A stretch of DNA of 64,000 bases, taken from the NCBI GenBank assembly GCA_028386065.3, contig JAKUCV010006750.1:452483-516482 (forward strand), in the 5' to 3' direction. Positions 1 to 63,616 of this stretch are shown piece by piece. Below the pieces are notes generated by a model. It saw only the letters and a program-made list of their open reading frames with translations, ran no database searches and was not told the DNA's origin. The translations under genes and the position numbers were made by a program. How positions within the stretch are numbered: the first letter of the stretch is position 1; each line of letters starts with the position of its first letter. The DNA comes from Turnera subulata (taxonomy: Eukaryota; Streptophyta; Magnoliopsida; Malpighiales; Passifloraceae).

Positions 1-617
1 TTGATCCCCGAGTTAACTGTGTAAAACAGATACAGATGATATCTCCATATCACTTAATTCGAGCGTGGCCATGCATTTACAGTTCAACTCTGTCAGGCGG
101 CCCAACTGATAATATACCCGTTATATGGGATGAACAATTCCCATCTTGATCATACAAAACCCACTACACATTATATCATATACCCAATAATTATTCTAAG
201 GTTTACTCAGTTACGGGTAACTAAGAGTAATATCAAAGTATACGACTCACATGTTGGGAACCTTGATGATCTCAGGTCTAAGGACAATACATATAAGAAC
301 CACTAATGACAACATATATAACAGTCCATGTAGTGTTCTTATGTCGGGTCAGTCCAGTCCACAAGTTCTCTAACTTGTACCCATATGTAGAATTCATATC
401 TCATATAATTCTCAACATACGCTAGTCTTATAAATAATAATGTTGGGTAGGTATTATTATTAGCTGATCCCTGTAAAGTTCTTATATTTTATAAGAATCC
501 AATATTTATACACGTTCGTAAATAGTGACTATTTGTATAAATAACCTTATTTTGGAATTATTTATATGTACTGATATTTTATACTAGTTACTAACCGAAA
601 ACCCGTAATGTGATTGT
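1..617 (-). repeat. 3' LTR of Ty1/copia element (cut by window start)
   Basis: Bases 1-430 align directly with 7738-8165 of the complete 5' LTR at 6793-8352, with scattered substitutions. The element reads on the minus strand, so this is the 3' LTR; about 940 bp of its R/U5 side lie outside the window. The inner edge at 617 abuts the polypurine tract. The final 187 bp (431-617) do not align in either normal orientation and are listed separately. The outer target-site copy is not visible. Confidence 0.9.
431..617. other. Parallel (unreversed) complement of the 5' LTR terminus
   Basis: Reading both segments left to right on the plus strand, each base here is the Watson-Crick complement of the base at the same offset in 8166-8352. 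For example, 'cccgtaatgtgattgt' at 602-617 faces 'gggcattacactaaca' at 8337-8352. I compared all 187 positions and found one disagreement, at 548. The segment starts immediately after the shared 'gctagtctta' (421-430 and 8156-8165) and stops at the LTR/PPT junction. It is not a reverse complement or an ordinary inverted repeat. As a result the 3' LTR lacks the normal minus-strand TGTTAG start. Confidence 0.93.
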
Positions 618-2975: not shown

Positions 2976-3815
2976 TTATGGTTCCTGTCCTTGTTCCATC
3001 TCATCCTCTATAGCTTCTTGTTGTACTCGAACTTCTTCGAGTTCTATTTTTCTCCCACTGATCTCTCTAGAAATAAATTCTTTTTCTAGAAAAATAGCTG
3101 TATGAGTAACAAACACTTTTTGCTCTGTGGGATTATAGAAATAATATCCTTTAGTTTCTTTAGGATATCTAACAAAAAGGCACTTGTCAGATTTAGGGCC
3201 GAGTTTGTCTGATGCTTGTCGTCTTACGTAAGCCTCACAACCCCAAATCTTCATAAAAGACAAATTGGGACGTTTCCCAGTCCACATCTCATATGGTATC
3301 TTTTCAACCGATTTAGATGGAACACGGTTAAGTGTAAAGGCAGCAGTCAATAAAGCATGCCCCCAAAATGAAAAAGGAAGATCAGCTTCACTCATCATAG
3401 AACGAACCATATCTAATAAAGTTCTATTTCTCCTTTCAGAAACACCATTCCATTAAGGTGTACCTGGTGGAGTAAGTTGTGATACTATACCACAATCCTT
3501 TAGATGATTAAGAAATTCTCGGTCTAAGTATTCACCTCCTCGATCAAAACAAAGCATTTTAATACTCTTGCCGAGTTGATTTTGTACTTCATTCTTGAAT
3601 TCTTTGAACTTTTCAAAGGATTCTGACTTGTGCATCATAAGATACACATAGCCATATATACTATAATCATCAGTAAATGTTATGAAGTACAGAAAACTTC
3701 CTCTAGCCTGTGTTGACATAGGCCCACACACATCAGAATGTGTAAGGCCTAACAAGTCTGAAGCTCTTTCACCTTTACCAGCAAAAGGAGCCTTTGTCAT
3801 TTTGCCAATAAACAT
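2976..3815 (-). pseudogene. Copia integrase core
   Basis: This is the catalytic core and C-terminal part of a retroviral-type integrase. The first acidic residue is in 'GLTHSDVCGPM' and the second in 'MLCFDRGGEYLDREF'. The third lies in 'WNGVSERRNRTL', right after an in-frame TAA at 3453-3455. After the stop the frame continues with the typical GKR motif region 'YEMWTGKRPNLSFMKIWGC'. The zinc-binding part lies in a different frame upstream, so there is a frameshift near 3800-3815. A further stop (2976-2978) and frame change separate integrase from RT. The order gag-PR-INT-RT-RNaseH is diagnostic of Ty1/copia. Confidence 0.9.
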
Positions 3816-5230
3816 GACTCACATGTCTCAAATGATTCAAAATCAAAAGAGTCCAAAAGTCCATCCTTATGGAGTTTAGAAATACGAGTCTCGTTTATAT
3901 GGCCCAAATGACAATGCCAGAGATAGGTCGTATTAGAATCGCTTAATTTAACCTTCTTCGAATTAATGTTATAGATTGGAGTTTCTCGGTTTAGAACGTA
4001 CAAACCATTGCTTAAATATGCACCACCATAATAAATTTCATTCAAATAAATAGAACAACAGTTGTTCTTTATTACAAATGAAAAACCCTTCTTGTCCAGA
4101 CAAGAAACATAAATCAAATTCCTGCTTATAGTAGGTACATAATAGCAATCATCAAGTTCTAAAACCAAACCACTCGGTAAAGATAGATAATAAGTCCCTA
4201 CGGCTAAAGCAGCAACTCTTGCTCCATTTCCAACACGCAGGTCCACTTCACCCTTTGCTAATCTTCTACTCTTCCTCAAATCCTGCACATTTACACAAAT
4301 GTGAGAACCATATCCGGTATCTAGTACCCAAGATGTAGAGATAGAAATATTAGCTTCTATAACAAGAATACCTGAAGCGGAAGTCTTACTTCCCTTCTGT
4401 TTCTTCACCTCCTCAAGGTAAACAAGGCAATTACGCTTCCAATGGCCAGGTTTCTTGCAATGGAAACATTGTCCTTCCTTTTCAACACCACCTTTGGGTT
4501 TGAGCACAAGTGAAGAAGAAGATGCACATGAACCAAACCTTTTGGTAGGTTTCTTCTTCTTGTTATACTTGGCCTTTCCCTTTCCTTTTCCATTTCCAAC
4601 CATCAAAATGTTGTTGGATTTATTTGCCTTCATCTGTTGCTCAACTGTTCCCAACATATTAAGCAACACAGACAGAGATTTGTCAAGATGATTCATATTG
4701 AAATTCATGACAAATTGGCTATAACTATCCGGCAATGATTGCAAGACAAGATCAACGACCAACTCTCTTTGCAAAGGATAACCCAGGCCTTCAAGGCTCT
4801 CAATGTATCCAATCATTTTGAGCACATGAGGTCTGACAGGTGATGACTCAGCCATCCTGCATTGGAAAAATATCTTTGAGGTCTCATACCTCTCATGCCT
4901 GGCTTGCTTTTCAAAGAGCATTTTCAGGTGTTCGATCATACCAAAAGCACCCAAGTTCTCATGTTGCTTCTAAACCTCAGAGTCCATAGTGACAAGCATA
5001 AGGCATGCAACATCCAATGCTTCATCAACATGCTTCTTAAAAGCATCCTTTTCTGCCCTAGGAGCATTAGGTGCCGGTTCATTAGGGGCAGGCCCTTCAA
5101 GGACATACAACTTCTTTTCTTGCTTGAGGACTATCCTCAAATTGCGATGCCGCTTAAGGAAATTATTCCCATTCAGTTTTTCCTTCTCAAGGACTGATCG
5201 CAGTGACATAGTATTTGTATTTTGTGCCAT
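3797..5230 (-). pseudogene. Copia gag, protease and integrase zinc finger
   Basis: Translation begins at 5230; an internal Met starts the familiar 'MSLRSVLEKEKLNGNNF' gag N-terminus. An in-frame TAG at 4970-4972 interrupts gag; the same frame resumes and runs to 3797. In order: a helical gag domain, a Lys-rich stretch ('GNGKGKGKAKYNKKKK'), one CCHC zinc knuckle ('CFHCKKPGHWKRNC'), the aspartic protease motif 'WVLDTGYGSHIC', then the integrase HHCC region ('HCHLGHINETRI' through 'CESCLLAK'). Gag should package RNA; the protease would process the polyprotein. One stop and one downstream frameshift make it inactive. Confidence 0.92.
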
Positions 5231-6776
5231 GATAATTCTACAATAATCAATTCACACAAAATCAGAGTCATGTATACATAAAATCATTTAACAAGAAATT
5301 TTATTAAATGATACTCCCACTATACAAATCACGAAGAAAATAAGTGGGCCAAGATCCATATTTCACTACAAGATAAGTTAACTTTGGCTAATCGCTTATA
5401 TCATAGTTATTTTGGTAGACAACTCTTTGTCAATTATATCTCATGTAACTCTTGGATAGTTGAGTGAACAACTCTTGTTCTTGTCTATCTCATAGACTTA
5501 TCTCAACTCTTTGCCTCTAATTCCCAATCCTATTGAGATGACTTAGTTAAGTTCAACCCATGACAAACAATTTGGATATTACAATTATCCCGTCGCACCT
5601 TGCTATGATAAACATTGGCACTTTGCTTTGGCAAACCTACCAAGTGTTGATCTAAGCATAGATGAGTGCTCATCAATGGAAGGCAACACATGAGGAACTT
5701 AATATTTACATCAATAATTGTTTCCATACATAACAATTATGCCATCGCATCTTGCTAGTATAAACATTGGCACTTTGCTTTGGCAAACCTACCAAGTATT
5801 GATCTAAGCAAAGATGAGTGTTCATTTCATACATAACATGCATGTGATCAAATATCACATATACAATAACTTTGCATCATTTATAATCATTACCAAGCTA
5901 TGTGACATGATTATAAAAGGATAAACATGTTAACAAGCAATCAACATATTGTTCATATATCATTAAGATCATAAGAACATGTTATCTAGCTTGCAAAACA
6001 TCGAAAACATTGGCAGAACCTTCACAACATCGATGTTGACACTTAAACATCGATGTTTGAGGTTGGCGAATCCTCAGAACATCGATGTTTACTCTTAAAC
6101 ATCGAGGTTTGAGGTTGGCGAATCCTCAAAACATCGATGTTTACTCTTAAACATCGATGTTTGAGGTTTCTGAATTCCAGAACATCGTTGTTGACACTTA
6201 AACATCGATGTTTGAAGTTTCTGGAACTCCAAATAATTGGCCGAATGGTAAGAACATCGATGTTTACATCTTAAGCATCGACGTTTTGACCTTGAACATC
6301 GATGTTTGAAATCAAACATCGATGTTTGAACCCCTCGGTGGACTATCGACCAAAGAGAACATCGATGTTTACCATTAAACATCGATGTTATGACCCTTCG
6401 GCTGATAATCAGCAAAGGAGAACATCGATGTTTACCATTAAACAACGATGTTTTATCCAGTCCGCCGAAGAGAACATCGATGTTTACCTATAAACATCGT
6501 TGTTGTGCCCCCTTATCAAACTCATTCAACTTTCTTCCAGAAACACACCTTGATTGATATCATATACCAATCGAGCACTTGCTGTCAAACACCTTTGACA
6601 GAACCAACTTCAACATATCACATATATGAGAATCATAATGATCTAGTTTAAGCATACTATCAACATAAGCATAATAAACTATGATCAAGTTATGTTGCTT
6701 ATACAATCATGATCAAGCCACATCACATATAGCATATCATATATATAAACAACTTATTCGGTATAGTGTTTCACAA
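5231..6776 (-). other. Copia untranslated leader
   Basis: About 1.55 kb lies between the PBS and the gag start. I see no coding domain in it. It holds a short tandem duplication ('tttgctttggcaaacctacc' at about 5618 and 5775 with similar flanks) and, next to the PBS side, the palindrome array at 6026-6510. The leader is long for a copia element. Confidence 0.75.
6026..6510. repeat. Array of the palindrome AACATCGATGTT in the copia leader
   Basis: I count 13 exact copies of the 12-bp perfect palindrome AACATCGATGTT and 5 one- or two-base variants (such as aacatcgaggtt and aacatcgttgtt) in about 485 bp. Many are paired, two palindromes separated by about 7 bp ('taccatta' or 'tactctta' between arms), with pairs spaced by less conserved 20-40 bp. 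Translation gives a periodic 'TSMF..KHRCS' pattern, but no initiation or domain supports a protein. Confidence 0.92.
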
Positions 6777-6792
6777 GAGGCTCTGCTACCAC
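6777..6792 (-). promoter_or_regulatory. Copia primer binding site (tRNA-Met type)
   Basis: The minus strand reads GTGGTAGCAGAGCCTC directly after the 5' LTR end. It resembles the plant initiator tRNA-Met PBS (TGGTATCAGAGC) with one difference. Confidence 0.85.
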
Positions 6793-8352
6793 TGTAAGTA
6801 ACCGGGTATGCAAACAAAGAGATAATATGTGCAGCGGAAAGACCCGAAACTAATGGAGGATCCATGTGAAACGGGGTAAATCGAATAACAAAATTTTTGT
6901 ACCTAGTTTGGTTGAGTTCTTTCGCTCAACTGTTGAGCCGAATTAGCAAGAACTAGACACAAATCCGATTCCACTACGGTATCCACATGAACCGTCAATG
7001 ACTGCTAGCAACCGTCTCACGATCACTAACCCGAGCACTCCCGAAATGCAGTGCTCGCTGCAAAATTCCGAGAGCTAGAGAGCCTAGAGTGTTTTACTCA
7101 CAACTGATGTGTATGTTCTTGTGTGTTGAGCTGTCAAAAATCTGCTCTTTTACACAGTCTTTCATATATCACATATATATTTCAATGTTAGGTAATATAG
7201 AAAATGGCCAACCTAATCATACATACATCTTATCATGCATGATTGTGTTTTCCATTATCTATACTTTAGTCATAATCATCAACATGATTATGTCTACACT
7301 AACTCAATTATATATATCAACATATATATAAGACAACACATCCTATCATGCTTTTTGGACAATAATTCAGGTTCAATAATTCTGGTAACTATTAAACCGA
7401 ACCAACCCAAACGACCCGATCCAACCATGGTCTAACCATTAGCTCAACAACCGGGTCGAACCATAGTCCAACTATGGTCTAACCACTTGCTCGAATCAAC
7501 AGTTCTGTGTGTCTAACCCTTTAGGCACTAATCACGTTGGCAATAATTATAAACTCTCATTTATAATTATTAACAATGAGCGGTGTCTAGCAACACATCA
7601 TTGCTACCCAAGTGACCAGATCAGAACTGATTCATAATGCCTCGAAAAATTGTCATTATCCTTTCGTCCCATTATTTCAAAATCAAACACGAGACATGGA
7701 ATATGTCATTCTCGTATATGTTTAATCTAAGGTTTCTTGATCCCCGAGTTAACTGTGTGAAATGGATACAAATGATATCTCCATATCACTTATTCCGAGC
7801 ATGGCCACGCATTTACAATTCAACTCTATCAAGGGGCCCAACTGATAAGATACCCGTTATATGGGTTGGACGAATCCCATCTTAATCATACAAAACCCAC
7901 TATACATTATATCATATACCCAATAATTATTCTAAGGTTTACTCAATTACGGGTAACTAAGAGTAATATCAAAGTATACGACTCACATGTTGGGAACCTT
8001 GATGATCTTAGGTCTAAGGACAATACATATAAGAACCACTAATGACAACATATATAACAGTCCATGTAGTGTTCTTATGTCGGTCAGTTCAGTCCACAAG
8101 TTCTCTAACTTGCACCCGTATGTAGAATTCATATCTCATATAATTCTCAACATACGCTAGTCTTAATTTATTATTACAACCCATCCATAATAATAATCGA
8201 CTAGGGACATTTCAAGAATATAAAATATTCTTAGGTTATAAATATGTGCAAGCATTTATCACTGATAAACATATTTATTGGAGTAAAACCTTAATAAATA
8301 TACATGACTATAAAATATGATCAATGATTGGCTTTTGGGCATTACACTAACA
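6793..8352 (-). repeat. 5' LTR of the Ty1/copia element
   Basis: The LTR is 1560 bp and is bounded by TGTAAG and CTAACA on the plus strand; the minus strand runs TGTTAG...CTTACA. The inner edge is fixed by the PBS. Bases 7738-8165 match the window-start LTR copy. The base after the outer edge belongs to the Athila-like sequence, so the copia element inserted there; the 5-bp flank is GTTGA. Promoter and polyadenylation signals must lie in this LTR, but I could not place them. Confidence 0.9.
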
Positions 8353-10515
8353 GTTGAGGAGGTTGGTGAGGGTTTTTGTCAATTGGACTTGCTGGCTCGT
8401 GTATTGGTTATGGAATTCTCACATGACACGGGCCTGTGTCTTCCCATTCCTCCTCAGTTCTGCGATGCCCCGAGTGATGTTAGTGCCCATTTCCCCTACT
8501 GAGCCTGTGAGGCAGATCTCTTGGGCGGAAATGCTGTCCTGGAGGCGCTGCTGACGTTCCGCTTAAGCATTGAGGGTCTCTTGTAGGCGGTTTTTGTTTT
8601 GGTGGATTAGAATAATCTGTTGACCAATCCAATCCTGCATTTGCTCTAGGATATCTAGTAATTGGTCCCGGGTAACTGCCTGGGCCTGTGCTTGAGGCTG
8701 TGGGGCTGCTGGAGGTGCTCCTACTGGCTGCCGCTGGCCCGGATTGTTTTGGAGCTGTTCTTGAGGCTGTGCCTCGCCTTGTGCTGCTTCTACTCCTATA
8801 GCCTGTTCCTCAGGCTGTTCCTCTGCTGCTTCTTCCTCAACCTATTCCTCAGGCTGTGGTGCAGGGAGGTTGAGGCGGTTGAGAATGGTGCCGTCGATCC
8901 AAACCGTTCCTTCAACTTCTTGGAACTGGTGGAGGGGAATGGCAAAGTGTCGTGCCAGTGTTGTGATTATCCCCACACCTGGAAGTTACTGGTCCTGCCC
9001 TGTGTGTAGAGGCGGCGGAGGATGAAGCATCCTTTGTTGAGGGGCTGTCTGTGAACCATGCAGTACAGAATAAAAAGCTCCTCGGTTTGCATTGTCAGGC
9101 GACTCCGGTTGCGGTCATAAATGTTATATGTCAGGAAGTGCTGAATGATTCTGAGGCTGCGACGGTGGAAAGATGTGGCACTGCTGGAGGACGAGTTGTA
9201 GCCCGGTGTGTTGGAAATCTCCCTCCAGAACGTTTGGGTGTCAAAATTTCCAAGACTCTCCTGGTGTCCTTCGTTTGGCAGTCCAAAATGGCATTGAACT
9301 AGGTGACCGTGAGGACCCGATTCTCGTTGCCCAACCTAAAGTAGGCGAGGCCATCTTGACGCGAAGGGCGTTCATGTCGAGCCATCTGCTAACAAGCACA
9401 ATCTGAGATTGTGCTCGTATCCACGCCCTCCTGTGGTCGGCACTTACTGCGCGAAAAACGAAGGGTTGGATGTCGGCCTCTTGTCAGGCCTGTTCATCTT
9501 CTTGTTGCTCTGCTTCTTCCTCCTCGCCTTCCCTCTATTCCATTTCTTCCCCTTTTGGGTGATGGGTTGGGGTCTTGGGTTCCTGAGGGCGATCCTGGTT
9601 GTATTTGGATCATCCCTCGTGTGTTGGTGTGAGGGTGAGTGTTGAGGGGCTAGCCGTGGTGGCGGTTTTGTATTTGGAGGTGGTGGAGCGGGTGCGTGGG
9701 CGTTTGGTCGGGCGGGTGGAGGTTTTGGTGAGGCTAGGGGTGAGGGCGGCGGTGGATGATTCTGGGGGTGGGTCCACCGTCATGTCGATGATTTTGTATT
9801 CGTGGACGGCAGTGCGCTTTTTGGGACGCACTTCAGCGTTGGTGGTGGTTTCGATTTCTGAAGGGGGGTATAGGTTTAGCACAATCCCGCCGCCAGAGAT
9901 TGTGAGTTGGGTACGAGAGCGGCGGGTGTAGTGGGTGAGTGGGGTTGTTCGTATGGTGGATGGTGTGGTTTGAGAGGTGTCGGGTATGGTGGCTGTGGGT
10001 TCTGTGGTTGGTGCAGACAGGGTGAGTTGGGGTGGGGATTGGGTGTTTTGTGGTGCGTAAAGGCGAGCAAACTCGCTTATTAGGTTGTGAAGGGGAGGTA
10101 GGTCTGGGTGTAGTGGCAGTGGTGGGGGGTTGATGGGCAGGTTGCGGTGGATGAATTGAAAAAGGGGGCGGGTGATGGTGTAGGTTCCAGTGGGGTTGAG
10201 GGGTGGGAGATTAGGGATAGTTTCGTTAGAGGGGGAAGAGGAAGGTGTTGTGGGCAGTAAGTTGGGGAGAGGAAGAAGATGAAGTGAAGAAAGTGAAGGC
10301 AGGGGTTTTCTTTTTAAAGCCAATGAACAGGAGTGAGGGATGGCGAAGGGGTGGATAAACGAAGAGTTATGTCTGCTGAGTAATGATTGTTGTCGCCTAT
10401 TCATATGTATGTGTGCCCCCTTTTTCAGAATTTGGGTTGTGTCTATTCGCATGAATGACACGTGGGTAAGGGAGGTATAATTGTGTTGGGCAGATTTTTT
10501 TACCGTGTGAGACAA
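8353..10515 (-). pseudogene. Athila-like env-like/third ORF region, degenerate
   Basis: Downstream of the integrase, a minus-strand frame from 10515 to 9610 encodes about 300 residues rich in Pro, Thr and Ser, ending in a basic 'RPTKRPRTRSTTSKYK' stretch. After a stop, conceptual frames down to 8353 resemble the plant retrotransposon third-ORF family: 'FWTAKRRTPGESW', 'LPGVGIITTLARHFAIPL', 'GTVWIDGTILNRL', then a Gln/Glu/Ala-rich, coiled-coil-like tail. Position and style fit the env-like ORF of Athila elements; function is unknown. Multiple stops make it non-coding now. The copia insertion at 8352 cuts off its end. Confidence 0.65.
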
Positions 10516-15752: not shown

Positions 15753-16476
15753 AATTTTTCATTGTAACGTCACAATTTTGGGAATTTTTAGTTAAGGGAA
15801 TTAATTTTCCTTGGATTTATGAAATTATGTCATGGTTGTTGAATTTTTATTCTAGTTTTGGAATAAGCTAAATGACTTAATTTGTCCTTCAAATTTTTCA
15901 ATTTCAATATTTATATCCCTTAATTTGTTGGAACCTACCCATTTAAATCTTATTAACCCATAAATTAAGAAACCTTGATTTATCGAAACTAAACATCATA
16001 ATCAAGTTACCACTAGAAGTCAAGAAGAAAATTAAATATGAAAAATGAATATAAATAAATATAAATTTAACAATAAAATATATTTAACCATTTATTCTTA
16101 CTCAATTTATTCATAAAAAAATAATTTACTTTTTTTTGCATAATTTAATATTAATATTAATCACTTTAAAAAATATCCACACTATATGTTATCATGTGCA
16201 TCGTACATGTATACAAACTAATAAAAACATGGTGTATGAAATTGGTTTTATGTCTTAACTTCATCCCAAATATTTTTTTTTATAGAACCAAAACCAAATT
16301 AGAAACACAAAAGGTAGGGGTTTGGCGTGGGGAGGGAAGTCGGCCAGAAACCAACCCCCCCCCCCCCCCCCCCCAACTCTCTCCTAAAGTGCACCGTTTT
16401 GTTAAAAAAATAGCAAAAGAAATACAATAAGAAGAATACCCAAGTCCCTAACTTCTAACTTTATACCTTTCAACTC
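15753..16476. other. AT-rich CACTA interior, no gene seen
   Basis: AT-rich DNA with no recognisable coding domain. It contains a 20-C run at 16355-16374. The left flank of the Harbinger element is at its end. Confidence 0.6.
16355..16374. repeat. Poly-C tract (20 C)
   Basis: An uninterrupted run of C preceded by 'cagaaaccaa'. Length in such tracts is often unreliable in assemblies. Confidence 0.9.
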
Positions 16477-25652: not shown

Positions 25653-28256
25653 TGTGAAGGCTCTCTCCCCGAGGGACCCATCAAACCCAGGTATTGTTAC
25701 ATCACTCCCTCCACCCGATTAAATCCTTTACCATGCTGCAGCACTAGGGATTCGAACTCGGGACGTGATGCTTTTTATCCCCCTCAAGGAAAGCACCTTC
25801 ACCAACTCATCTGCAGACATTCAAGCAACAGTTCATTATTCTCATCTGTTGTGTGTTAAGTTTTCTTTATATATTTATTATTCAGGTCCCCCCTACTGTG
25901 TGCGTCGAGCTCGGTCCCGTCTCATGAGACAACCAGGCATAAGCCCAAATAAACCAGGCACGAAGCCCAAACATATCCATAGAGAGAGAGAGAGACAGAG
26001 CGAAAAAGGGAGATAGAAAGGGGGAGGTAGAAGGAGGGAGGTAGAAACCGGTCATCACAGACCCATATGCTATACCGCATATACCATGCTATCCTGCATG
26101 TAAACCCGAGGGGTAATACTTCCCGCTCGAACCAACCGGTCATCAGCACACAATAGCCTATCTTCTACAGTACATTATTCTTATTCACAAATTACGAGTT
26201 CATGTGTGCCAAGAGTTGTGATTTAACAGGGTTGTGTGAGTAATCAACTCAATCGAATATCCGGGTCTCCGACCCACAACACATCACACAAATCACCCAA
26301 AATCACTCCACATTTTATATCCCATAACAATCCAAACATCATGCTCATAAGCAAACAGTAACACATAGGCACACAATACGGATCACAGCATGTTAGCAAA
26401 CAGGCATGCAACTCAAACAGACCAATCCAACAAGCTCATGCATACAAGCATAAAAAGACGTATAAAGTCACCTCAACGACGATTGTCCTGTGGAGCTTTT
26501 CCCAAAACAGATCCTCCAGCTCCTGAGGTATTACCCGTGCCTGAATACCGGCACACACAAATATTACAAAACAATTACAACCAAACGTGCATGCCTGATC
26601 ACTAAATGCTCAACTGAGTTAAACCCGTCCCTAACTAGCCAATTATGTAATTCCCGGGTCTAAGCCCGTCAAGGTGTTTCTCTCACCTAAACTCCGAGTA
26701 TCGGGACTTAAGGTTCACCGAGCTTAAGCCCAACTAAGTCCATAAATAGTTCCCAGGCCTATAGCCCATTCATTATGTCCTTAACGAGTCCCCGGGCCTA
26801 AAGCCCTTCTAAGTCCAATGGTTTTCAAATCAAGTTATAAAAATCACGTTACCGGGCCTAGGCCCGATTCGGACCAATTTCCACTTAAGGGTTTTACCCG
26901 AGTCCAAATATTCCCGTCCTATGGTTCTACCCGTGTCGGTAAACTCCCGGTTATACACACTCACAGCCCCGCACCCGGTATTCCACTAAACATCCTTTAT
27001 TTCCGATAAAACAATTATTCCTACATTAATTATTACATGCCATGAATGTACATCAAATTACACATCGAGGTAATACCGTTAAATGCCGGAATAAAAACCC
27101 GAGCCTTCGCCGGAAAATTCCCGAGCCTCGCCGGAATTCACCAAAACCACCAGAACGAACCCAACAGTTCTGCCAACATGCATCAACCATCCATTCAACA
27201 ATCCGACAACACAAAATTGACAAGAGAAACAGGAAGGAGATCGCATCCTTACCCGGAAGCTTACTGCCGAACACAACACGTCCACAAGAACCACCAACGC
27301 CGGCGTCCCTCTGCCCGGAGGCAACCTGCAATGACCACACCACAACGACCCGCCGCCCAAACACCACCACTACAACCTGCAACAGACACGAGCCCCGCCA
27401 CCATCCAACAACAACACAACTCGACGCCGTCAACCCACACACCCAACACAACAACAACAACCCGAATACCACCACACACACCCAACACAACAACAACCAC
27501 CCGCCACCGATCCAACGCCCGACACAACAAACGAAACCAAAACCAATCAACACAAAAGAAACCCAAAAACGAGAAAAGAAAAGGGAGAGGGAGCAGGAGT
27601 ACTCACCCGTGCTCGCGGCTCTTTCCCCTCCCAACTGCAGCGGCGGCGACGACGTGCTCCAGTCGCAGCGAGAGACGACACTGCGATGAACGGCGAGGAG
27701 AAGAGATTCGGGCTGTGTGGAGAGGCAAGGGAACAAAAGCGGCAGCGGATGATCGGGGTGAGGAGGTTTCGTGGAAGAGAGGAGGAAAAGAGAGAGGAAA
27801 AGAGAAATAGGAAGAGAGAGAGAAGAGAGGAGGGTAGCAGCGACGGGAGAAGAAGAGAAGAAAAGAAGAGGAGGAGAGAAAATAAGAAAAAAGAAAAGAA
27901 AAGGGAAAGAAGGGCCGGCTAGGGTTTCGACACGCCAAGCCCAAAACGACGTCGTGTCGTTTGGCTTGGCGCGGTCAACCTGCCCCGTTGACCAGCTCTC
28001 ATCTTTTTTTTTTCTCTCTTTCTTTTCCAAAACGACGTAGTTTCAATAGGAACCGCGTTAAACATCGCGTTTCACCCCGATCTAGAATCCGTTTCCCCCG
28101 GGACCCGAACCACGAACAATACCAACTTAAAATTGACATTTCCAAGGCATAATATTTTATTTCCTCGACTAAAACTCGAAAATACCCCAAGGGTAAATTT
28201 GGAATAAAAATTCTGGAAATTTCATAAATCCAATAATGAAAATCCGAGGCGTTACA
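25653..28256 (-). repeat. 3' LTR of Tekay A with a foreign outer end
   Basis: Bases 25816-28256 align with 36008-38444 of the other LTR. The outermost 163 bp (25653-25815) do not match; the corresponding 578 bp of the other LTR (35430-36007) are missing. The LTR includes a GA-rich stretch, CAA/ACA-rich tracts and the palindrome-like 'aacgacgtcgtgtcgttt' near 27943. Long open frames here on both strands are low-complexity and not believed to be genes. Confidence 0.85.
25725..25826 (-). repeat. tRNA-related (SINE-like) fragment
   Basis: The minus strand reads an A-box-like 'GATGAGTTGGTGAAGG' and about 50 bp later a strong B-box-like 'GAGTTCGAATCCC', the spacing and order of a tRNA-derived Pol III promoter. 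No poly-A tail or its own target duplication is visible, so it is a fragment if real. Confidence 0.4.
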
Positions 28257-29442: not shown

Positions 29443-29628
29443 GGGTTTTTGGTACGGATGGTACCCATATTTTATGATTTGAGACAATCATGTACCCAAA
29501 CTTTTTGCCGAGACATTTATGTACCTGGACTTTTAACAGGTAGGTCAGTCATGGGTCTCGGGCTGGGTATCTGCTGACTTAGAAGCTGCCCAAAATTGGG
29601 ATGCTGCCCGTATCTCAAAACGACGTTG
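29443..29628. repeat. MULE A left TIR
   Basis: Matches the reverse complement of 31541-31726 with scattered differences, through 'gacaatcatgtacccaaac' and 'ggtcagtcatgggtctcggg'. It ends near an 'aaaacgacgt' motif. Confidence 0.92.
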
Positions 29629-31540: not shown

Positions 31541-31726
31541 CGACGCCGTTTTGAGCAACGGGCAGCTACCCAATTTGGGGCAGCATCCACATCAGCATAT
31601 ACCCCGCCCGAGACCCATGACTGACCTGCCCGTTAAAAGTCCAGGTACATAAATGTCTAGACAAAAAGTTTGGGTACATGATTGTCTCAAACCATAAAAT
31701 ATGGGTACCAACAGTACCAAAAACCC
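31541..31726. repeat. MULE A right TIR
   Basis: Inverted copy of the left TIR, ending 'gtaccaaaaaccc'. Its inner edge has 'acgacgccgttttgagc', the counterpart of the left 'ctcaaaacgacgttgttt'. Confidence 0.92.
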
Positions 31727-35429: not shown

Positions 35430-38400
35430 TGAAACACCCGTGTCCCAATTTCACAAGTAAAATACTTAAACAAAGGAATTTACCAAAATATCCCTGGAAC
35501 CCAGGACACGAAATCCAATATCAAAACATTATCTGGAAAGAGATTTTTAATATTCCGAGATGTCATAAAGAACAAAAGCAAAACCGGCCTAACAAGCCTC
35601 AAGTCAACCCGGCATCCTGCCGGTACATTACCAAATACCAAATCCCGGCAACCCGCCGATAAAGTAATCAAAATGAAGATGACATCTCAACAAAATTCAG
35701 TACAGCGGAAGTCATGATAAAATACAAAACAGCAAAGTATAAGATATGCATGTCGGCTCTATGGATCCAACCGGGAAATGAAGCACAGCTACCTGCTGGG
35801 ATATCCACGTCCGTACTCTGGGAAAAGAAGAAAGAGACTGCACGCTATCTAAGAGTCTGAAAAACAACGTTGGCGATTATGTGAGTCGCCTACTCAGTGA
35901 GCAGTATAAATCTAATTATGTAGGTGTGCAGAAACAAGTTCGAAAGGAAAGAAGAGAAACAAGACAAGTATGCAAACATACAACAACTAGTACTAACATG
36001 CCAAAGACATTCAAGCAACAGTTCATTATTCTCATCTGTTGTGTGTTATGTTTTCTTTATATAATTATTATTCAGGGCCCCCTACTGTGTGCGTCGAGCT
36101 CGGTCCCGTCTCATGAGACAACCAGGCATAAGCCCAAATAAACCAGGCACGAAGCCCAAACATATCCATAGAGAGAGAGAGAGAGACAGAGAGAAAGAGG
36201 GAGATAGAAAGGGGGAGGTAGAAGGAGGGAGGTAGAAACCGGTCATCACAGACCCATATGCTATACCGCATATACCACGCTATCCCGCATGTAAACCCGA
36301 GGGGTAATATTTCCCGCTCGAACCAACTGGTCATCAGCACACAGTAGCCTATCTTCTACAGTACAATATTCTTATTCACAAATTATGAGTTCATGTGTGC
36401 CAAGAGTTGTGATTTAACAGGGTTGTGTGAGTAATCGACTCAATCGAATATCCGGGTCTTCGACCCACAGCACATCACACAAATCACCCAAAATCACTCC
36501 ACATTTTATATCCCATAACAATCCAAACATCATGCTCATAAGCAAATAGTAACACATAGGCACACAATACGGATCACAGCATGTTAGTAAACAGGCATGC
36601 AACTCAAACAGACCAATCCAACAAGCTCATGCATACAAACATAAAAAGACGTATAAAGTCACCTCAACGACGATTGTCCTGTGGAGCTTTTCCCAAAAAA
36701 GATCCTCCAGCTCCCGAGGTATTACCTGTGCCTGAATACCGGCACACACAAATATTACAAAACATTTACAACCAAACGTGCATGCATGATCACTAAATGC
36801 TCAACTGAGTTAAACCCGTCCCTAACTAGCCAATTATGTAATTCCCGGGTCTAAGCCCGTCAAGGTGTTTCTCTCACCTAAACTCCGAGTATCGGGACCT
36901 AAGGTTCACCGGGCTTAAGCCCAACTAAGTCCATAAATAGTTCCCGGGCCTATGGCCCATTCATTATGTCCTTAACGAGTCCCCGGGCCTAAAGCCCATC
37001 TAAGTCCAATGGTTTTCAAATCAAGTTATAAAAATCACGTTGCTGGGCCTAGGCCCGATTCGGACCAATTTCCACTTAAGGGTTTTACCCGAGTCCAAAT
37101 ATTCCCGGCCTATGGTTCTACCCGTGTCGGTAAACTCCCGGTTATACACACTCACAGCCCCGCACCCGGTATTCCACTAAACATCCTTTATTTCCGATAC
37201 AACAATTATTCCTACATTAATTATTACATGCCATGAATGTACATCAAATTACACATAGAGGTAATACCGTTAAATGCCGAAATAAAATCCCGAGCCTTCG
37301 CCGGAAAATTCCCGAGCCTCGCCGGAATTCACCAAAACCACCAGAACGAACCCAACAGTTCTGCCAACATGCATCAACCATCCATTCAACAATCCGACAA
37401 CACAAAATTGACAAAAGAAACAGGAAGGAGATCGCATCCTTACCCGGAAGCTTACTGCCGAACACAACACCTCCACAGCAACCACCAACGCCGGCGTCCC
37501 TCTGCCCGGAGACAACCTGCAACGACCACACCACAATGACCCGCCGCCCAAACACCACCACTACAACCTGCAACAGTCACGAGCCCCGCCACCGTCCAAC
37601 AACAACACAACTCGACGCCGTCAACCCACACACCCAACACAACAACAACAACCCGAATACCACCACACACACCCAACACAACAACAACCACCCGCCACCG
37701 ATCCAACGCCCGACACAACAAACGAAACCAAAACCCATCAACACAAAAGAAACCCAAAAACGAGAAAAGAAAAGGGAGAGGGAGCAGGAGTACTCACCCG
37801 TGCTCGCGGCTCTTTCCCCTCCCGACTGCAGCGGCGGCGGCGACGTGCTCCAGCCGTGGCGAGAGACGACACTGCAATGAACGGCGAGGAGAAGAGATTC
37901 GGGCTGTGTGGAGAGGGAAGGGATGAAAGGCTGCAGCGGACGATCGGGGTGAGGAGGTTTCGTGGAAGAGTGGAGGAAAAGAGAGAGGAAAAGAGAAATA
38001 GGAAGAGAGAGAGAAGAGGGTAGCGGTGACGGGAGAAGAAGAGAAGAAAAGAAGAGGAGGAGAGAAAAGAAGAAAAAAGAAAAAAAAAGGGAAAGAAGGG
38101 CCGGTTAGGGTTTTGACACGCCAAGCCCAAAACGACGTCGTGTCGTTTGGCTTGGCGCGGTCAACCCGCCCCGTTGACCAGCTCTCTTCCTTTTTTTTTT
38201 TTTCTCTTTCTTTTCCAAAACGACGTAGTTTCAATAGAAACCGCGTTAAACATCGCGTTTCACCCCGATCTCGAATCCGTTTCCCCCGGGACCCGAACCA
38301 CGAACAATACCAACTTAAAATTGACATTTCCAAGGCATAATAATTTATTTCCTTGACTAAAACTCGAAAATACCCCAAGGGTAAATTTGGAATAAAAATT

Positions 38401-49472: not shown

Positions 49473-51345
49473 TGATGCAGTCGTGGTTTCCTACAAGTGC
49501 ACAGGGTTGTTGTAGTGCGTATCAAGGTCGTATCCACAGGGACTGGGTGGAATCCGTTTTCCTTCTATCTTAGAATAATTAGACTTGAAAGCAATTAAAC
49601 GGTGATGGATTTGGTGAATAATTATTAAGAAGCAAAATAAACAGTAAAATAAATGTAACAACAGACTAAATGAGGGAGAGATCAGGAATGGTGAATTCTT
49701 AGGCATCCGGGATCCACATGTCCTGATTTGTGCTCACGAACTACTCTACAGCCTCAGTCACAGACTGACACTGTGATGAGGCTGTGACTAATGAGATGTC
49801 TTGCCGGGGCTCCCAACCTAAGGTACTATCAACGGCTTTCGATCTTATTAATAGTTCCTTAAGCTTCTATCTACCCCCTGTCACTAGAGCAGACGTCCAC
49901 TTAGGGATGAAGTTTAATGTTGGTGCTGGTTCCCACAGCCTCTCCTTACCTTCTTTCGAATGCTTAAGGAGTGAAGGTTGACTATTGTAGGTCTAACACT
50001 CCTGGCTTCTCCTTTCGGTTCTTCACCAGGTTGCTACTGAAATAAGAGTATGCTACCCAATAATCAATCAAGAATCAAATTAGGAGGTGGTTATCTCTTG
50101 ACTATGCTGTCACAGACTGAGGCTGTGCTTGACACAGCTCGACACTGTCGACAGCAACGTACACTGTGATAGGCTGAGGCTGTGCTGGGCGCAGTCTGAG
50201 GCTGTGGCCGACTAAAGGGTCAATTATAAGGATTGGTTCTTGCAGGCGCTCTCAACCTATAATGAACCCATTTGTTTTCACTCACAGGTTCCTCCCAAGG
50301 TTCTCATCTTCCAAGTGCTTTCGCATAGGTCAAACTCAAGGGGATGAAGATTTGGTGTTGAGGCTAATTCCTCAATTAGTTTCTAATTCTCTCACGAGTT
50401 AAAAACTAAGGTTTGGTTGTTGTTTTTTTGGTAACTATGGTTTCTCCTTTTGGTCCTTCACCTAGCTACCTGAGTTCATGCATTGGTTTGATCAGAACCT
50501 AGACATGGATTAATAACTCAACAACTAAAGCAAGAAGGAAGGGGTTAAAACAAGAGCAGTTCATTAAACACAAATCGGGTACATGCTTCCCCCTTCAACC
50601 TAAGAAGGGGTTGTTTAGTTCATAACAGAAAATACAAAAACAACAGTGGAAGGGGTGAAAAGCATTCTGTCTTGAACAGTTGGTTGTGGGACAACACGAT
50701 TACTGCCCAGAAAACTGCAGAATCGTGTTTCCCTTGGAGCTTTTGTGGTGTTTTCTCCACTGTTCGACCCCTCGCTTGCTTCCCCCGACTCCTCTTCTTG
50801 TAGGTGCCGCTCTCTTTTTCTCTCTCTCTCTCCTCTTCTCCCCCACTTGCTGGAAATGATGGGTGTCGGTCAAGTTGTAGAATCTCCAGCGGTGTTGTCA
50901 GAGCAGGCGGGATGGGCAGCGTCGATTGGTGGGATGTGAGTTCCAAGACACCCTTTTGCAGAGGATAACCAAGATTCCTTCTGGGCGTCATGTGCCCATT
51001 GCTCCTTTTCCTTCAAAGTGCTCTGGGAATGTCAGAAGAATGACTATTTTAAGTTAGTGGAGCGGGTGGTGCTAGTGGCGGCGTTCTTGTTGAATCGACG
51101 GCCTCAAGGATGGCTCACAAACTCTGTCACAGGCTCACGCTGTGACTGAGGCTGTATCCTCATATTCTTCAATGAAATTCCATCGATTTGGCCAGAATGT
51201 ACCTGAAACCACTAATCACACAGTAAGGGATGGAAATTGGAGGAATATGATGGAATATTGCATATGAGGCACATAATCACAGTGAATTGAGGATGGTTTG
51301 TGTACAAAATCATGCCTTAAAACTATGCATATTTCACATGCATCA
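49473..51345 (-). repeat. 3' LTR of the Athila-like element
   Basis: 1873 bp, TGATGCAG...CATGCATCA on the plus strand. Compared with the other LTR it lacks 217 bp (57339-57555) between two GTTCTT copies and has about 22 extra bases near 50175. It is rich in the GAGGCTGTG / CACAGCCTC motif. Confidence 0.93.
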
Positions 51346-55741: not shown

Positions 55742-57812
55742 TGATGCAGTCGTGGTTTCCTGCAAGTGCACAGAGTTGTTGTAGTGCGTATCAAGGTCGT
55801 ATCCACAGGGACTGGGTGAAATCCGTTTTCCTTCTATCTTAGACTAATTGGACTTGAAAGCAATTAAACGGTGGTGGATTTGGTGAATAGTTATTAAGAA
55901 GCAAAATAAACAGTAAAATAAATGTAACCATAGACTAAATGAGGGAGAGATCAGGAATGGTGAATTCTTAGGCATCCGGGATCCACATGTCCTGATTTGT
56001 GCTCACGAACTGCTCTACAGCCTCAGTCACAGACTGACACTGTGATGAGGCTGTGACTAATGAGATGTCTTGCCGGGGCTCCCAACCTAAGGTACTATCA
56101 ACAGCTTTCGATCTTATTAATAGTTCCTTAAGCTTCCATCTACCCCCTGTCACTAGAGCAGACGTCCACTTAGGGATGAAGTTTAATGTTGGTGCTGGTT
56201 CCCACAGCCTCACCTTACCTTCTTTCGAATGCTTAAGGAGTGAAGGTTGACTATTGTAGGTCTAACACTCCTGGCTTCTCCTTTCGGTTCTTCACCAGGT
56301 TGCTACTGAAATAAGAGTATGCTACCCAATAATCAATCAAGAATCAAATTAGGAGGTGGTTATCTCTTGACTATGCTGTCACAGACTGAGGCTGTGCTTG
56401 ACACAGCTCGACACTGTCGACAGCAACATACACTGTGACAGGCTGAGGCTGTGGCCGACTAAAGGGTCAATTATAAGGATTGGTTCTTGCAGGCGCTCTC
56501 AACCTATAATGAACCCATTTGTTTTCAGTCACAGGTTCCTCCCAAGGTTCTCATCTTCCAAGTGCTTTCGCATAGGTCAAACTCAAGGGGGATGAAGATT
56601 TGGTGTTGAGGCTAATTCCTTAATTAGTTTCTAATTCTCTCACGAGTTAAAAACTAAGGTTTGGTTGTTGTTTTTCTGGTAACTATGGTTTCTCCTTTTG
56701 GTCCTTCACCTAGCTACCTGAATTCATGCATTGGTTTGATCAGAACCTAGACATGGATTAATAACTCAACAACTAAAGCAAGAAGGAAGGGGTTAAAACA
56801 AGAGCAGTTCATTAAACACAAATCGGGTACATGCTTCCCCCTTCAACCTAAGAAGGGGTTGTTTAGTTCATAATAGAAAATACAAAAATGACAGTGGAAG
56901 GGGTGAAAAGCAGTCTGTCTTGAACAGTTGGTTGTGGGACAACACGATTACTGCCTAGAAAACTGCAGAATCGTGTTTCGCTTGGAGCTTTTGTGGTGTT
57001 TTCTCCACTGTTCGACCCCTCGCTTGCTTCCCCCGACTCCTCTTCTTGTAGGTGCCGCTCTCTTTTTCTCTCTCTCTCTCTCCTCTTCTCCCCCACTTGC
57101 TGGAAATGATGGGTGTCGGTCAAGTTGCAGAATCTCCAGCGGTGTTGTCAGAGCAGGCGGAATGGGCAGCGTCGATTGGTGGGATGTGAGTTCCAAGACA
57201 CCCTTTTGCAGAGGATAACCAAGATCCCTTCTGGGCGTCATGTTCCCAGTGCTCCTTTTCCTTCAAAGTGCTCCGTGAATGTCACGAGAGTGACTATTTT
57301 AAGTTAGTGGAGCGGGTGGTGCAAGTGGCGGCGTTCTTTATTCTTTTTGCATTTTCTGGGTTTCTGTCGCGTGTACAGCCTCACGCTGTGGGTGAGGCTG
57401 TGACAGCTCTTTCTCAAATTCTTCCTTTAATTGGCTTCTGTTTCTTTCGTCGATGGTGTGATGTCATGAGGACTTCCTGGATCATGGTGAGTGCAATGTG
57501 ATTCAGTGAAAACTTGGTGATCCGAAGGTGGTTTGAGGTTGTTTGCTGGGTTCTTGTTGAATCGACGGCCTCAAGGATGGCTCACAGACTCTGTCATAGG
57601 CTCACGTTGTGACTGAGGCTGTATCCTCATATTCTTCAGTGAAATCCCATCGATTTGGCCAAAATGTACCTGAAACCACTAATCACACAGTAAGGGATGG
57701 AAATTGGAGGAATATGATGGAATATTGCATATGAGGCACATAATCACAGTGAATTGAGGATGGTTTGTGTACAAAATCATGCCTTAAAACTATGCGTATT
57801 TCACATGCATTA
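55742..57812 (-). repeat. 5' LTR of the Athila-like element
   Basis: 2071 bp, TGATGCAG...CATGCATTA on the plus strand; the final CA has become TA. It retains the 217-bp segment absent from the other LTR. It has a CT-rich tract at about 57050-57090. Confidence 0.93.
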
Positions 57813-63586: not shown

Positions 63587-63616
63587 CCCCCCCCCCCCCC
63601 CCCCCCCCCCCCCCCN
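63587..63616. other. Poly-C run ending in an N (assembly uncertainty)
   Basis: 29 C followed by N at 63616, the only ambiguous base I noticed. Sequence composition changes from AT-rich to GC-rich across it, so the two sides may not be truly adjacent. Confidence 0.9.

Follow-up and report, generated by a model that had tools for sequence, protein, structure and literature searches.

The window (the whole stretch of 64,000 nucleotides of Turnera subulata DNA analysed here) begins inside a minus-strand insertion of a long terminal repeat (LTR) retrotransposon. The left LTR, which is the 3' LTR of this element, begins at contig position 451530, before the window opens, and its ordinary part within the window occupies positions 1 to 430 (minus strand). 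The right LTR (5' LTR) of the same element, at 6793 to 8352 on the minus strand, is ordinary and has TG...CA ends. The two LTRs are flanked by the target-site duplication GTTGA; one copy occupies 8353 to 8357, and the second adjoins the left LTR and lies beyond the window. The minus-strand stretch at 6781 to 6791, which we take to be complementary to the initiator-Met tRNA, is for that reason regarded as primer-binding-site-like. An ordinary minus-strand stretch at 620 to 629 (CTCCCACTTG on the plus strand) is presumably the side of the polypurine tract (PPT). With its paired TG...CA LTRs, its 5-bp target duplication, and its putative PBS-like and PPT-like stretches, the host element resembles plant LTR retrotransposons. 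It probably belongs to Ty1/Copia, a label that follows the first-pass annotation. Comparison of the ordinary parts of the two LTRs shows 24 mismatches in 429 aligned bases for one stretch (1 to 430 against 7737 to 8165, with one additional gap) and 65 in 943 for a second, and because of this divergence the insertion is judged to be old. It otherwise looks like an ordinary member of its kind, apart from the patch described below and a possible tandem duplication at 1615 to 2879.

The duplicated part consists of two tandem pol stretches, 1615 to 2248 and 2250 to 2879, which are identical in 549 of 636 aligned columns. The same stretch is present once in each of four other copies (L049 to L052), so the doubled version in the window may have arisen when two copies were wrongly joined. 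Between the element interior and the right LTR, 17 repeats of a unit starting with AACATCG fill positions 5991 to 6510. A further LTR end of the same family, seen in L028 (positions 3893 to 4498), is located about 32 bases upstream of the left LTR of the window element. Elsewhere in the window, an inverted repeat spanning 86 bases (29478 to 29563 and 31606 to 31691) is found inside another LTR-type element.

At position 431, the ordinary sequence of the left LTR stops. The first-pass annotation had described bases 431 to 617 as the plain complement, without reversal, of 8166 to 8352 (minus strand), with 186 of 187 positions identical and only position 548 deviating, and had placed the change from ordinary to complemented sequence at 430/431. 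Direct comparison confirms all three observations. The identity of these segments is 0/187 in direct orientation, 64/187 in reverse and 50/187 as reverse complement, so a mirror-symmetric inversion was rejected as the origin of the block. At 186/187, a chance match is ruled out, as the annotation had also concluded. A scan of the window under all 24 base permutations, forwards and backwards, yields no other plain-complement pair with exact 22-mers.

The block does not end exactly at the LTR edge, as had been stated, but passes it by two bases. Ordinary 3' LTR copies (L011, L017, L019, L025, and L026) read AACA-AT-CTCCCAC at this junction, with TT instead of AT in L023, whereas the window has TA before CTCCCAC. 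The tract therefore covers 431 to 619 rather than 431 to 617. A two-label alignment, in which the reference is either ordinary or complemented, gives the limits 431 to 619, a gap-free tract of 189 bases. When re-complemented, this in-place, in-register tract reads as an ordinary LTR end followed by two bases of the PPT side, which is probably the true sequence at this site, and it is identical at 189/189 positions to the ordinary copy L029 from another contig. The base that the tract implies at its position 118 (window 548) is carried by 20 of the 20 ordinary copies examined, which were chosen from the strongest matches of the right LTR; the sole mismatch is therefore a change private to the right LTR, at 8283, and not one of the tract. 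It is also unlikely that the tract was copied from the partner LTR: the PPT-side AT is among the bases complemented in the tract, the right LTR has GT at that place, and L029 fits the tract better than the right LTR does.

Nor is the block unique. A search of the window's own assembly (518.7 Mb in 7125 sequences) for this block, as the first-pass annotation had proposed, reveals 19 further places, with differing boundaries. Specifically, window segment 380 to 680 as a query yields 55 matches, with 40 of 1457 first-look candidates scored, and 19 places besides the window match its complemented part. All 19 were fetched, having been chosen through that very match, and all 19 carry a tract. With the window and a second LTR copy in L026, this makes 21 LTR tracts, which are adjoined by ordinary LTR sequence. 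In L014 and L016, the best reference aligned the ordinary flank on one side only; the other flank of the L014 tract is ordinary LTR sequence, and the other side of the L016 tract is at or just past the LTR edge. The L019 tract spans both the LTR edge and the PPT. No allelic contig of the window locus is present among the 55 matches of the 380 to 680 query (40 of 1457 candidates scored), and no mutually contradicting overlapping contigs were found for L012 and L016. As a separate observation, L014 contains two tandem units, 5121 to 7145 and 7346 to 9370, which are 98.85% alike over 1826 bases and spaced by 200 bases, and the last part of the second unit is a complement tract, 199 bases long, of the end of the first.

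Complement tracts are not confined to LTR ends. L025 contains a second tract, of 199 bases, within pol. When the plain complement of window 3450 to 3849, a pol stretch, is used as a genome query, 4 of 4 candidates are in-place tracts, including the one in L025; these tracts are 141 to 199 bases long and have ordinary flanks. Two further repeat pairs in the window, 49506 to 50158 with 55775 to 56427 and 36787 to 37511 with 26596 to 27320, are predicted to be LTRs because of their pairing and the frames between them, which we take to be gag/pol-like. The plain complement of a stretch from 49506 to 50158 gives one match, a 199-base tract with 147 of 191 aligned bases identical and with an ordinary flank matching at 26/26 bases before it and 162/200 after it. 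The plain complement of a stretch from 36787 to 37511 also gives one match, of about 94 bases at 78%, delimited by BLAST only and lying inside an ordinary match at 73%. These two tracts in other elements (77% and 78%) are the weakest matches. In total, 27 tracts are found in 25 places of the 518.7-Mb assembly, in LTR ends, in pol, and in two other LTR-type elements. The 26 aligned tracts are 44 to 201 bases long, with a length of exactly 199 in three of them (L014, L049, and L053). All 26 run as the complement in the direction of their own flanks, and an in-place reversal without complementing was rejected on this ground.

The abundance of tracts can be estimated only roughly. In 46.4 kb of element-like sequence, two tracts came to light in loci that had been fetched on other grounds (in pol of L025 and in the second LTR copy of L026). 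The pol query gives 4 tracts in a 400-base stretch against 2327 unverified first-look ordinary candidates, a lower rate than the 46.4-kb count suggests; the first-look numbers in this work (1457, 2834, and 2327) are counts of candidates, not copy numbers. LTR ends appear to be richer in tracts (at least 20, with 40 of 1457 candidates scored) than pol (4), an excess that would be explained if the repeats had been gaps.

Among the 210 pairs formed by the 21 LTR tracts, none has both ends in common within 2 bp, and even within L026 the tracts of its two LTR copies do not end at the same places. Of the 8 other LTR ends in the fetched stretches, which are not necessarily partners of the same insertion, 7 are ordinary (L011, L012, L013, L014, L019, L025, and L028) and one, in L026, has a tract. 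The complement form does occur in other copies, as it would in a separate LTR subfamily inherited by transposition, the alternative offered in the first-pass annotation. With 0/210 shared pairs of ends and 7 of 8 other LTR ends ordinary, whether partners or not, the probability of this explanation is close to nil, and an ancestral complement subfamily was rejected on the differing boundaries. An event linked to the LTR edge or the PPT was likewise rejected, as the window tract passes the edge by two bases and the L019 tract runs through both edge and PPT. The coincidence of the block with the LTR edge had been used as an argument against a random assembly error. This argument does not hold in the window, where the edge is passed, nor elsewhere, where tracts lie across the edge and PPT (L019), in pol, or in other elements. 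Deliberate alteration of the genome copy, with planted tracts, is compatible with the single copy of the data but is very unlikely: three kinds of element carry tracts, in no fewer than 25 places, and the 21 LTR tracts, when re-complemented, fit different ordinary copies.

Comparison with ordinary copies shows 0/189 differences for the window tract, 0/199 for L014, and 1/195 for L016. Against the best of six ordinary references, the 21 LTR tracts differ at 124 of 3274 positions (3.8%) and their flanks at 453 of 5455 (8.3%). The tract is less diverged than its own flanks in 20 of 21 cases, the exception being L010 (3.1% in the tract, 2.4% in the flanks). Since ordinary copies, too, are more alike in the tract block, part of this difference is regional, and the data are taken to suggest only that the tracts have no excess of changes, that is, no sign of ageing. 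Counts by CpG/GpC context are 19/278 versus 8/216 in the tracts and 37/388 versus 16/120 in the flanks.

The base exchange itself appears to be specific. The A↔G,C↔T form of the pol stretch at 3450 to 3849 has 0 candidates genome-wide, and its A↔C,G↔T form also has 0, compared with 4 for the complement form, which served as a positive control, and 2327 first-look candidates for the ordinary form. In a 253.7-kb set of sequences, a biased sample that includes loci picked for their complement tracts, 21 of 22 further base exchanges yielded nothing past the filter. The remaining one, TCGA, produced 27 rows in the 253.7 kb. All 27 fall on rows that the plain complement also gives for the pair in question, and they are bleed-through in A+T-rich DNA.

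These counts bear on the possibility that the patches stem from colour-space (SOLiD) ambiguity. SOLiD colour space gives identical colour strings for a sequence and for its plain complement, and wrongly anchored decoding of a short patch would thereby produce the complement in perfect register without any reversal bug. However, wrong anchoring should also yield the two other exchanges, neither of which is seen in the 253.7 kb or, for the one pol stretch, genome-wide, and there is no sign that the project used colour-space data. This origin is accordingly extremely improbable.

Another possibility is that the tracts represent real DNA, in which a polymerase or repair system performed parallel copying, or systematic A↔T + C↔G exchange ('swinger' replication), over as many as about 200 bases. 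Okazaki fragments are about 200 bases long, and the tract lengths near 200 resemble them. The tracts are many and in register, and of the exchanges tested, A↔T + C↔G alone appears. According to Seligmann (PMC4942731), no other exchange has yet been seen in DNA, and 'swinger' DNA of this type is described there, including the 16S rDNA of Kamimuria wangi. Parallel PCR has been claimed (PMC4304224), and PMC7027195 discusses artefact versus swinger transcription. A real process would be expected to leave tracts of different ages, some of them inherited. The tracts instead lack an excess of changes, none of the 21 LTR tracts is common by descent, the two LTR copies in L026 differ in their tract ends, and the assembly has joining scars. 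To our knowledge, no accepted enzyme makes an in-place plain complement. Copying of this kind is thus highly improbable, and so, to the same degree, is a rewriting of nuclear DNA as plain complement in an event too recent or too transient for the tracts to have aged or been inherited.

The swinger 16S rDNA of Kamimuria wangi (PMC4942731) resembles the present case in having a plain complement block within ordinary sequence and sharp switches. In contrast, the tracts described here are nuclear, judging from their transposon context, recurrent, no longer than about 200 bases, variable in their boundaries, and unaged. These differences point to data handling.

The best explanation, to which we assign a probability of about 0.92, is that the block arose as a data-handling artefact during assembly and therefore belongs to the assembly rather than to the plant. 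This reading is favoured because many in-register tracts with differing boundaries occur in several transposon types without ageing, and because of the four forms of the pol stretch tested, the complement gave 4 candidates and two other exchanges none. A patch artefact would be expected to hit unrelated sequences, and the tracts lie in LTR ends, in pol, and, one each, in two other LTR-type elements. It would also ignore anatomy, and the tracts cross the LTR edge and PPT, sit inside pol, and share ends in 0/210 pairs. Finally, patches should have no mutations of their own, which agrees with 0/189 and 0/199 changes and with 3.8% divergence against 8.3% in the flanks. A complement-without-reverse error was one of three options in the first-pass annotation, next to a deliberate edit and an undescribed process, and it is the best supported of them.

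In such an artefact, scaffolding, gap filling, or patching would write stretches of up to about 200 bases as plain complement. The simplest route would be a fill from the opposite strand that was reversed without being complemented, which would give exactly an in-place complement. The responsible step is presumably gap filling or patching, and the ceiling of about 200 bases may reflect either the read length or a constant in a program. GapFiller (PMC3446322) extends through k-mer overlap; extension in this style would not by itself give a flush complement.

Apparent joining scars also favour an artefact. At 63587 to 63616, 29 consecutive C precede a single N, likely a footprint of scaffold joining or gap extension. 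Like it, a run of 20 C at 16355 to 16374 resembles a read or gap-extension artefact. At position 4917 of L021, a single N separates two copies of one stretch and looks like an unmerged overlap left by the scaffolder. Longer N runs, from 93 to at least 6996 bases, are found in four loci and may be assembly gaps, although little weight is placed on them. No N run touches a tract in the fetched loci, which counts against the artefact. As in the faulty gap fills and misassemblies of draft genomes, the patches are short, flush, and located in repeats, and joining scars are present, but they are complemented, neither inverted nor misplaced. No earlier report of complement-only assembly patches was found in the literature, as searched by title and the start of the abstract.

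If the tracts were biology, they would overturn antiparallel copying. If they are an artefact, short complement patches are probably numerous in the Turnera subulata assembly, where they would disrupt repeats and perhaps genes. As neither strand aligns, such patches go unnoticed in ordinary inversion checks, and in assemblies they could pass for 'swinger' DNA. Comparing an assembly with its own plain complement would be a cheap test of its quality.
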